Origin: Desulfobacula sp.
GTDB lineage: Bacteria; Desulfobacterota; Desulfobacteria; Desulfobacterales; Desulfobacteraceae
Assembly: GCA_023701135.1 (NCBI GenBank)
Contig: JAMPXP010000008.1
Span: forward strand, 1 to 64,000
Length of the DNA stretch: 64,000 nt
Direction: 5' to 3'
Below are positions 43,153 through 46,454 of the stretch, piece after piece (positions within the stretch are counted from its first letter, which is position 1; every line of letters begins with the position of its first letter). The notes beneath the pieces were generated by a model. That model did no database searches, was not told the DNA's origin, and worked only from the letters and a program-made list of their open reading frames with translations. Position numbers and translations under genes: made by a program.

Positions 43153-43169
43153 ACAGTTTTTTTTTACGA

Positions 43170-44300
43170 CTAAGCTATCCGGTTTACTATTGGGGACGGC
43201 GGAATTGATGCTGGGGAATCATTTTCTAGGATGTTTTTCCTGTTTTTTTTCTCAATGCAATCATCTTCAGAGGGAAATAGGCTCGGTTGAAAAATATACT
43301 GGCGCCTTTGTTTGGTTGCCTTGGCTGGCTCAAGAGTGCAGTAGATTTTTTCAAGTTGATAATTCGACTGATTGCTTTTAAGTTTGCAAAGGATCTCTCT
43401 TATTTCTTCGACACTATACCCGTCGAGAAACCTTATGATGGACGCAGAAAGATATTCTCGATCAAGTTCGAATGTTAACCATTTTCTATTCAAGGCTTCA
43501 GCAGTGAATCCAGTAGTATTTGAACCTCCAAATATATCCAAAATGATATCTTTTTCATCGGTCAACATTTTTATAAAGAATGCTGGAAGTTCTGTTGGAA
43601 ACCGAGCCGGGTGGCGTTGAAGCCCTAATTCTTTACATAACCTTAAGTAACTTGAATTGCTGTCTGTGTTTGGAATAGTTAAAAGGTTGGCCGGAATTGC
43701 TCCCCCGTTATTTTTTCCAAATCCTGCACTTATGTCATGGCCTGACGGGCGTTTTTTGGGTTTGTAGAAACTATCGGGATCTTCAATCAGCTTTTTCATT
43801 CTATCCGAATAGGGTACCAATACTTTACGAACGTCAGCTTTAGGAAATGCGGTTTTGCTAAACCACCATACGGTATTTACTGAGTCCTTTGCCCTTATTT
43901 TTCTTTTGTTTACCCATTCAATGGGTGATGGCAATTTTGCCGGGTTAAACCAATAAAAATCCTCGGAAAGATGAAATCCTATTTCATCGCAGAACATCAG
44001 CAGAACTCTAAAGTTATACAAAGACCGGGATGGTATGCCGGACTTGTATGCGCCCCCCAAATCGAGAACGAGACTCCCGGTTTCCTTTAAGACTCTGAAA
44101 ACCGCTTTTCCAAAAGGCTTTATCCATTCAACATATTCGGTCTCCACTACATTGCCATAAGTTTTTTGTCTGCGAAGGGCAAACGGCGGGGAAGTCATTA
44201 CAAGATCTACGCTATTGTCAGGCAATTCAGATAGAAGTTCTAACGAATCACCACAATAGGCCTTACCTTTTTTAGTGTAATACAGGGGCTCACTTCTCAT
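43170..44300 (-). CDS. DNA methyltransferase, M.PvuII-like (predicted N4-cytosine)
   Basis: LVMTSPPFALRRQKTYGNV, YWFNPAKLPSPIEWVNKRKIRAKDSVNTVWWFSKTAFPKADVRKVLVPYSDRMKKLIEDPDSFYKPKKRPSGHDI, DIFGGSNTTGFTAE; close to M.PvuII as I recall it. MRSEPLYY start at 44300. Confidence 0.88.
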   Translation of the reverse strand: MRSEPLYYTKKGKAYCGDSLELLSELPDNSVDLVMTSPPFALRRQKTYGNVVETEYVEWIKPFGKAVFRVLKETGSLVLDLGGAYKSGIPSRSLYNFRVLLMFCDEIGFHLSEDFYWFNPAKLPSPIEWVNKRKIRAKDSVNTVWWFSKTAFPKADVRKVLVPYSDRMKKLIEDPDSFYKPKKRPSGHDISAGFGKNNGGAIPANLLTIPNTDSNSSYLRLCKELGLQRHPARFPTELPAFFIKMLTDEKDIILDIFGGSNTTGFTAEALNRKWLTFELDREYLSASIIRFLDGYSVEEIREILCKLKSNQSNYQLEKIYCTLEPAKATKQRRQYIFQPSLFPSEDDCIEKKNRKNILENDSPASIPPSPIVNRIA

Positions 44301-44302
44301 AA

Positions 44303-45778
44303 TTAGTATTCCTTTAGGTCGTGGACCCAACTGTCAACAATCTGCCATAGGACACTTGCTGCGAAATAAACTTCTGGATCTGTTTTACATATTACTTCGA
44401 TGTCGGCTTGGTTGATATTATCTTTTCCATATCCGACAATATAGCTTATCCACCTTCGTAAGTTGTCATCGGCTCCGGAAATTATATCCGACGGATCGAA
44501 TTCAGCAGATCGGGCAAGAGCCCATGATATTCCATCTCGTTTGGCCGGCTCGGAATTCTTCAATAGTTTAACCAAGTGGTGAACCTGAGGATCAGCAATT
44601 CGTAGGAGTGCTCTTGCTGCTTCTACCTTGATTTCCAGGGTGCTTAAATTGAAGGTATTAACAAGAGCGGTTGCTGAATTGGTTGAAACAAACTGCCCTA
44701 ACGCCCAAGCTGCCCCAGCCCGAAGTTCATCATCACGATGGCTGTCCTTTAATACCTCAATCAGTAAATTTTCGCTGCGCTTCTTGGGTATTTCAGACAC
44801 CACAATAACAGTTTCAAGTTGTGTTTCAAGAGGAACGGCCATGATCGGGCTACGGAGTTTGTTCTCGATAAACACCCAGCCGTAAGGATCATCATATGCG
44901 GCAAGTGCCGCCGCTGCTTCGAGCTGCACATATATATCTTCATCATTATCGTTCATCCTGGATTCGAGAACAGATTTAGCCTTGGTGTACCCACGATAAC
45001 GCAAAGCTTTTGCAGCCGCATATCTTTCACTCAGATTGACACTTGTAAGTTTGTCAATAAAATAATCTTCATCAACAGATGGGGGGCATTTAAGAATTGT
45101 TTTGACAGGGACAACAGATGCTACAATTTGATTCATCTCGATGATATTGCCTATGGTAATCTGCGGCAATAAGTTTATTTCCCCTTTTTTTCGAATCAAT
45201 TGGATCGTCTGGTTTCGTGCCTTCGGGATAGGGATAAGGCTAATCTTTTTGGGTTCAACAGAAAGGACCTCTGATCGCTGTTTGGCTGCTGCAGTTGTCC
45301 ATATTACTCTTATTTCGGAACCTTCTTCGGCTCCTTTCGGCTTAGTTATAGAAACCTGCTGATTACCAAAGGCAGTACGCATATCATTGACTTTGGTGAA
45401 ATGGACAGGGGACGTTTGTTCTAAATCTATGGGAGAATCATTTTTTTGTTCGAATACAACGATTGAAACAAAATCATCATCCTTCATGCCTGCATCCCAG
45501 GCTCGTTTGGGGTCATTTAGTGAATGTGACATTGAGATCTCAGGCTTGGTTTTGCCACGTGACTCAAAGCGCAGACCAGTGTTCAAACATAGAATATCTG
45601 GAACCCGGACTCGCTTGATTTTTATTTTTTTCCAAATTTTAAATCCAGTTGAGCCGCGCTCAAGCTCAATGGGGTTAAAACCCATTTCTCTAAGGCGTTT
45701 CATGGTGGCATTCGTTCCTGCTGCACCAACAGCGAGTTTTTTAAGAAAACTGTCATCACTCTTGAAATTATTTGCCAC
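44303..45778 (-). CDS. HEAT-repeat protein with possible nuclease-like N-terminal domain (candidate restriction component)
   Basis: C-terminal HEAT-like helical repeats (SERYAAAKALRYRG, ELRAGAAWALGQF, IKVEAARALLRIAD); N-terminal RVPDILCLNTGLRFESRGKTKPEISMSHS; 2 bp upstream of the methyltransferase start. Confidence 0.6.
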   Translation of the reverse strand: MANNFKSDDSFLKKLAVGAAGTNATMKRLREMGFNPIELERGSTGFKIWKKIKIKRVRVPDILCLNTGLRFESRGKTKPEISMSHSLNDPKRAWDAGMKDDDFVSIVVFEQKNDSPIDLEQTSPVHFTKVNDMRTAFGNQQVSITKPKGAEEGSEIRVIWTTAAAKQRSEVLSVEPKKISLIPIPKARNQTIQLIRKKGEINLLPQITIGNIIEMNQIVASVVPVKTILKCPPSVDEDYFIDKLTSVNLSERYAAAKALRYRGYTKAKSVLESRMNDNDEDIYVQLEAAAALAAYDDPYGWVFIENKLRSPIMAVPLETQLETVIVVSEIPKKRSENLLIEVLKDSHRDDELRAGAAWALGQFVSTNSATALVNTFNLSTLEIKVEAARALLRIADPQVHHLVKLLKNSEPAKRDGISWALARSAEFDPSDIISGADDNLRRWISYIVGYGKDNINQADIEVICKTDPEVYFAASVLWQIVDSWVHDLKEY

Positions 45779-45902
45779 CTTGTTACTCCCTTTCCCTTAT
45801 AAAACTATTTGAAGCATTGTTTCTTTTATTACCCTGTATTGGATTCAGCGACCATCGGAAACTAAGAGAGGAACTATGGGGTCGCCTCATGAAAGCTGTA
45901 TT

Positions 45903-46136
45903 TCATTTTGAAAATTTTTTCTTAATTTTTTCAAAAACTTCTTCACCCGGAATGAGTTTTGCGTTTCCGTTATAGACGTCTTGACATCGGCGTTCGGCTT
46001 CCTGCACCCATGCCTGATCGATATCATTTTGAGCCGGCAGGTTTGTGCTGATGAGCAGCTTGTCTATTAGAATCAAACGGTCATTTATCGGGAGATTAAG
46101 GGCTTGTTCATATATTTTTTCAGCAGATTCCATCAT
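45903..46136 (-). CDS. Addiction-module antitoxin component, no adjacent toxin seen
   Basis: AEKIYEQALNLPINDRLILIDKLL...IDQAWVQEAERRCQDVYNGNAKLIPGEEVFEKIKKKF matches the putative addiction-module component family. Confidence 0.75.
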   Translation of the reverse strand: MMESAEKIYEQALNLPINDRLILIDKLLISTNLPAQNDIDQAWVQEAERRCQDVYNGNAKLIPGEEVFEKIKKKFSK

Positions 46137-46181
46137 AATTTTACCTCTTACTGTTAACTATATGGATTGATTAATTTTAAA

Positions 46182-46289
46182 TCAATATGGTTGTATTTTC
46201 GCCAAAAATTGTAATCGGCTGATGCCCGTGGGTTTAAGAAATTCTTCCAGGAGGATTTCGCCCGGGGTTATGGGTTTGAGTCTGTTCAT
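46182..46289 (-). pseudogene. Truncated HigA-type antitoxin remnant
   Basis: Hand translation from ATG at 46289: MNRLKPITPGEILLEEFLKPTGISRLQFLAKIQPY*, which matches the HigA N-terminus (xxPIxPGEILxEEFLxPxGIS) and then stops. Confidence 0.6.
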
Positions 46290-46349
46290 ATTCTTTTAAT
46301 ACCGCAGGGCGTGATGAAGGTCAATCCTGATTTCGGTTGCAATGAAATA

Positions 46350-46378
46350 TTGACAAGGCTGAAATTCCTGAACATAAT
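46350..46378 (+). promoter_or_regulatory. Predicted sigma-70-type promoter for the RND efflux operon
   Basis: TTGACA (46350-46355) - 17 bp - CATAAT (46373-46378), 76 bp before the ATG at 46455. Confidence 0.6.
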
Positions 46379-46454
46379 ACCCTTGTTTTATTCTTCACAG
46401 GTCAGACTTCTGTAAATTACGACCGGTCACGGTTGGATACCATAAGGGGGTGCA

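Follow-up and report, generated by a model that had tools for sequence, protein, structure and literature searches.

What does a methyltransferase of the PvuII type do beside a protein built of HEAT repeats, at a locus where a PvuII-type endonuclease might be sought? The question is raised by two adjacent genes in the window, by which is meant the whole 64,000-nucleotide stretch of DNA analyzed here. The answer proposed, with a probability of about 0.86, is that the two genes together make up a Type II restriction-modification system, complete and spread by horizontal transfer, with the specificity of PvuII (CAGCTG), and that the 491-amino acid partner of the methyltransferase is its endonuclease. 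The features of the locus are these:

43170..44300, minus strand: gene for a 376-aa M.PvuII-like cytosine-N4 DNA methyltransferase, ATG start
44301..44302, minus strand: junction of 2 bp from the nuclease stop to the methyltransferase start (TAA-TT-ATG)
44303..45778, minus strand: gene for the predicted restriction endonuclease, 491 aa, GTG start; its pairing with the methyltransferase is conserved
45344..45778, minus strand: predicted nuclease domain, residues 1-145, placed by alignment, AlphaFold2 and Foldseek (E38, E40, P60-D61, E72, R74, which is K in locus L036, and K76)
45116..45316, minus strand: barrel domain resembling RNA polymerase beta, residues 155-221, placed by sequence-level hits and Foldseek
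44321..45070, minus strand: HEAT-repeat solenoid, residues 237-486, placed by profile and structure matches
43160..46450, no strand: low-GC insert that holds the cassette (GC 0.38-0.46, against 0.53-0.66 in the flanks)

The methyltransferase and its setting

The preliminary description had called the methyltransferase M.PvuII-like, and the comparison bears this out. Residues 4-311 match M.PvuII (PDB 1boo) with an E value of 3e-134 and nearly without gaps, the enzyme is 61.9% identical over 310 amino acids to the product of the pPvu1 gene, and a TSPPF motif lies at residues 36-40. Its ATG start is kept in 20 of 20 copies checked, which rules out a TTG-started version of 386 amino acids as a mechanical open reading frame. 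A search of the window's genome for a second full-length M.PvuII-like gene found none.

The partner gene lies immediately upstream on the same strand, with the coordinates and the 2-bp gap confirmed. The insert that holds both genes sits downstream of a glpK-FAD oxidase gene pair. Relatives of the same genus also have this pair; those that do were searched for the HEAT partner, and none was found. As for an empty insertion site, the right-hand neighbor was not seen beside the left-hand one in these relatives. The low GC of the insert is an indication of horizontal acquisition.

The description had also held that neither a PvuII-like endonuclease nor a C protein is present, and this stands. A search for PF09225 (R.PvuII) gave no hit in the window's genome or in five other carriers, while pPvu1, the positive control, was found. 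Within the cassette, no gene of the C-protein or HTH kind was seen. The nearest small gene (45903-46136, minus strand), directly upstream of the cassette and in the same low-GC insert, encodes a 77-aa protein of the Unstab_antitox family (PF09720), and no toxin partner is visible beside it. A short open reading frame at 46182-46289 (minus strand) resembles, by eye, the start of a HigA-type antitoxin; it has no Pfam match.

A predicted nuclease domain in the partner

If the partner is an endonuclease, a catalytic domain should be found in it. The search for one meets an obstacle in the repeats. HEAT_2 (PF13646) covers the C-terminal half of the protein (E 1.6e-13), just as had been claimed from the sequence, and Foldseek with a full-length model lists only repeat (HEAT/armadillo) proteins. 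The N-terminal region was therefore modeled alone. Its sequence matches no profile in Pfam, NCBIfam, PADLOC or PHROGs. Among catalogued PADLOC defense families, the partner as a whole has nothing beyond one weak, repeat-level match (HEAT-ARM_XIII, E 8e-6).

The AlphaFold2 model of residues 1-235 (pLDDT 85.6) has a helix at 9-31 and strands at 36-38, 62-64, 70-76, 81-86 and 103-111. With this model, Foldseek pairs the nuclease domain with Hjc (2wcw; probability 0.95, TM to target 0.48) and with SfiI (2ezv; probability 0.66), the matches being modest (E 0.013-0.05, TM below 0.5); VRR-NUC proteins stand lower down in the viral list. At this modest level of match, residues 1-145 are predicted to have a fold of the PD-(D/E)XK type and are grouped with Hjc and SfiI. 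A loop rich in lysine and arginine (residues 42-57) is poorly predicted in the model. Hjc has a flexible DNA-binding loop, probably at the corresponding place.

An alignment of 21 homologs shows what has been conserved. The invariant residues include E38, L39, E40, R41, K47-I48-W49, R56, R58, P60-D61, E72, K76, M83-S84-H85, R92 and W94-D95. This gives an E-PD-E-x-R/K-x-K layout in which PD-x10-E-x-[R/K]-x-K is compatible with PD-(D/E)XK. In most members, the position usually held by the catalytic lysine, two after E72, is an arginine (R74). The homolog at locus L036 reads PD-x10-E-A-K, which is the canonical ExK. Residues 59-86 had been described as suggestive of, but not canonical for, such a nuclease. 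The predicted fold upholds the first part of this judgment; the second holds only in part, given the ExK of L036.

The gene is under purifying selection, with dN/dS of 0.05-0.20 in close pairs (0.10 for the window's copy against that of locus L008), and its start codon is GTG in 18 of the 20 HEAT-A copies.

The barrel follows the nuclease domain and precedes the HEAT repeats. Here, about 65 residues match the RNA polymerase beta subunit by Foldseek (probability 1.00, rmsd 2.1-3.3), and sequence-level hits place the domain at about 155-221. In genome scans, the profile also retrieves open frames resembling rpoB, about 1360-1415 aa in length. RpoB-like matches of this kind in three genomes (G550, G677 and G723) share the barrel domain only, are not whole-protein homologs, and were dropped. 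Matches at five loci (L003-L007) that involve only the HEAT repeats were dropped as generic.

A pair that travels together

Two adjacent genes may, of course, be neighbors by chance. A scan of genome contigs for relatives of the HEAT protein gave 28 loci, mostly 65-82% identical, in Pseudomonadota, Chlorobiota, Planctomycetota, Cyanobacteriota, Verrucomicrobiota, Armatimonadota, Actinomycetota, Thermodesulfobacteriota and others (about ten phyla). An M.PvuII-like gene lies immediately downstream in all 26 loci where the contig reaches that far, and also directly downstream in L041, L074 and L075. The gap between the two genes is 1-2 bp at each of the 16 homologous loci measured. Linkage across phyla excludes chance neighbors. 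The remaining neighbors vary from locus to locus, and the cassette is a mobile two-gene unit. The family is rare and patchy in the sampled genomes. No HEAT homolog was found among annotated plasmids and phages; IMG/VR holds one (L041).

More distant relatives fall into two subfamilies. In subfamily C (L030, L031, L074 and L075), the HEAT protein is about 40% identical and its partners are again M.PvuII-like. In subfamily B it is about 30% identical, and its partner is an unrelated methyltransferase of 584-591 aa with a TDPPF motif:

L036 6291-9870, strand not given: subfamily-B nuclease beside the TDPPF methyltransferase
L042 6539-10107, strand not given: subfamily-B nuclease beside the TDPPF methyltransferase

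At L036, an HTH gene of the C-protein kind stands beside the nuclease, on a 45-kb contig with a relaxase. Thus, a survey of neighborhoods finds an essentially complete co-occurrence with methyltransferases, two unrelated types included. One type of nuclease paired with two unrelated methyltransferases fits an endonuclease, and not a methyltransferase subunit.

The two genes also decay differently. At seven loci (L020, L023, L026, L028, L029, L032 and L034), the HEAT gene is interrupted and the methyltransferase is intact; the reverse, a broken methyltransferase beside an intact HEAT gene, was never seen in the loci compared. A hand calculation that lets lesions fall in proportion to the length of the two genes (491 and about 349 aa) puts the probability that all seven lie in the HEAT gene at about 0.02; some of the interrupted copies, being from metagenome assemblies, may reflect assembly error, and L029 is closely related to L032. 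Cells tolerate losing the endonuclease but not the methyltransferase.

Avoidance of CAGCTG

The methyltransferase predicts, in advance, the site at which the system should act, and genomes can be asked whether they avoid it. In 459 kb of sampled stretches from the window's genome, CAGCTG is observed 3 times against 70.1 expected (maximal-order Markov), the lowest z-score among 2067 6-mers. The window itself has none, with 10.4 expected. Two genomes of the same genus that lack the cassette have 33 (44.2 expected) and 55 (60.4 expected). Among other carriers, the counts observed and expected are 8/49.3 in Accumulibacter, 5/94.8 in Chlorobaculum and 59/103.0 in Tepidicella. Over the pooled 26 HEAT-A carrier loci, CAGCTG stands at 9/102.2 by a second-order Markov model, and no palindrome scored comes lower. 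The specificity of the cassette is very probably for CAGCTG.

Such avoidance is reported to be caused only by Type II systems in which endonuclease and methyltransferase are independent; it increases with the time of residence, and it can be the trace of systems since lost (PMC4687349). A recent gain would fit those carriers in which avoidance is weak or lacking. No avoidance is seen in Thermosulfurimonas, a carrier of the more distant subfamily C (18 observed, 18.8 expected), or in two genomes of subfamily B (53/61.1 and 51/58.9), and the avoided words compared in the subfamily-B genomes give no clear shared target. Genomes that have carried the cassette for long have mostly purged CAGCTG. 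The site is avoided at intact HEAT-A loci (6/75.6) and at broken ones (3/26.7) alike, as expected if the breakage is recent.

The Chlorobaculum genome (G775, L132-L141) also strongly avoids CCCGGG (0/44.7) and GTCGAC (2/118.8), which suggests further long-resident Type II systems there.

Other ways to read the pair

Linked but separate genes, a nuclease domain predicted from the partner's model, and avoidance of the recognition site are features of an orthodox Type II system. Against the proposal stand the modest Foldseek matches, the arginine that most members have for the catalytic lysine, the poorly predicted loop 42-57 and the Thermosulfurimonas count. Might the methyltransferase nevertheless be a solitary, epigenetic enzyme, with the HEAT protein a non-nuclease accessory or regulator? 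The avoidance would then have been left by a lost PvuII-type system, as its capacity to outlast systems allows, and the arginine in place of the motif lysine in most members would speak for it. This is nonetheless unlikely. Avoidance tracks the cassette across several phyla and is not strong in the two same-genus genomes that lack it. Further, the catalytic-type residues of the HEAT protein are invariant, the protein also occurs with an unrelated methyltransferase, and it is the HEAT gene that decays while the methyltransferase stays.

A second possibility accepts that the HEAT protein is a nuclease, while giving it another target (modified or damaged DNA, or junctions such as those that Hjc cuts) and making the methyltransferase a self mark or sensor. 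Hjc, the best fold match of the nuclease domain, is of course a junction resolvase, and a HEAT solenoid could perhaps sense structure over sequence, by analogy with HEAT-like DNA glycosylases. It would be surprising, however, if such a nuclease left strong avoidance of exactly the site that the methyltransferase predicts, and M.PvuII-type methyltransferases otherwise partner ordinary endonucleases. We regard this reading as very improbable.

Least credible is the idea that a different, unrecognized enzyme for the same site purged CAGCTG here while the cassette lay inactive: the genome search did cover known families only, but it found no PF09225 and just one full-length M.PvuII-like gene, both cassette genes are intact, and the avoidance recurs in unrelated carriers.

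Comparison with known systems

The closest known system is that of PvuII itself (pPvu1, Proteus vulgaris). The methyltransferases are alike, and the site is very probably the same. The endonuclease of the cassette, however, is three times larger than R.PvuII and has no sequence similarity to it (BLASTP E 0.72; hhalign probability 0.2%). Together with the difference in size, these values exclude, as far as sequence can tell, an R.PvuII that has diverged beyond sight. Further, the PvuII genes are divergent, whereas those of the cassette form one operon with the nuclease first and without a C protein.

The M.PvuII family has evidently combined with other nucleases. In a survey of annotated plasmids and viral contigs that hold an M.PvuII-family enzyme, a PvuII-type endonuclease stands beside it at L043-L047, L051, L052, L063-L065, L069 and L070, an HNH/MTaX1 protein is the partner in L048 and L049, and elsewhere the HEAT nuclease takes that place; a few of the viral contigs carry neither a PvuII-type nor a HEAT nuclease. 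A PvuII-type endonuclease (PF09225) and a HEAT nuclease were never found together at one M.PvuII-family locus. In the methyltransferase tree, one clade (100/99) gathers the HEAT-A partners and a second (95/78) those of HEAT-C; the partners of PvuII endonucleases lie between and around the two.

The MTaX1-HNH pairs, on Thiothrix and Roseivivax plasmids (L048 755-2672; L049 1117-4603, the latter also with an Mrr_cat protein upstream), resemble the cassette in joining an M.PvuII-type methyltransferase to an adjacent endonuclease that is not of the PvuII type. They differ in having an HNH catalytic domain, a nuclease downstream of the methyltransferase, and no HEAT repeats. On two Acinetobacter plasmids (L044 1486-2268; L045 1487-2269, minus strand), the PvuII-type endonuclease is annotated as an HTH protein only. 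The L044 enzyme is a fusion with an HTH domain, which puts the C and R functions in one chain.

With Hjc, VRR-NUC-like proteins and SfiI, the cassette nuclease shares the order helix, beta, E, loop, PD, beta, E-x-K/R, and its predicted fold resembles theirs at the modest scores given above. It differs from them in lacking detectable sequence similarity, in its mostly arginine occupant of the usual lysine position, and in its fusion to an RNA-polymerase-like barrel and HEAT repeats. Repeat proteins of the HEAT/alphaRep and CpcE/F types have a solenoid like that of its C-terminus; these serve as scaffolds for binding or as lyases, and have neither a nuclease domain nor a linked methyltransferase.

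How the system might work

The M.PvuII-like enzyme would methylate the inner cytosine of CAGCTG (m4C), and the Hjc-like PD-(D/E)XK domain at the N-terminus of the partner would cleave CAGCTG that is unmethylated. The candidate catalytic residues are D61, E72 and R74 or K76, with E38/E40. The barrel and the solenoid probably bind or clamp the DNA, and may set specificity or mediate dimerization. Lacking a C protein, the cassette may hold its nuclease level down through the conserved GTG start, a possible built-in dosage control, and the 1-2 bp junction may couple synthesis of the methyltransferase to that of the nuclease.

A broader proposal is more tentative, and we give it somewhat less than an even chance. 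It holds that these proteins make up a family of restriction endonucleases that is new and modular: the head is of the PD-(D/E)XK type, an RNA-polymerase-like barrel comes next, and the HEAT solenoid itself reads or clamps DNA. The family would have been paired with two or more unrelated methyltransferases, and so would act at different sites.

What the cassette implies

Type II restriction-modification at the PvuII site is known; the architecture of this endonuclease is matched in no profile library used. A literature search, with most subscription papers and REBASE outside its reach, returned no paper on a Type II restriction enzyme combined with HEAT repeats, and REBASE may already list members of the family as putative enzymes. 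The preliminary guess of an undescribed restriction-modification system is supported by the predicted nuclease fold, the co-occurrence with methyltransferases and the genome-scale avoidance of CAGCTG.

Here, then, is a predicted endonuclease family, on a mobile cassette in about ten phyla, that Pfam, NCBIfam, PADLOC and PHROGs recognize through its HEAT repeats only. An orphan M.PvuII methyltransferase is all that might be recorded for its carriers, so that their restriction capacity may be under-counted. Both the methyltransferase and the avoidance seen across genomes predict its target, CAGCTG, beforehand. If the proposal is confirmed, a Type II enzyme can be built on a scaffold of solenoid repeats, and one family of methyltransferases will have combined with three unrelated nucleases (PvuII-type, HNH/MTaX1 and HEAT). 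On the broader and more tentative proposal, HEAT repeats would offer a scaffold not used before for the sequence-specific cleavage of DNA.
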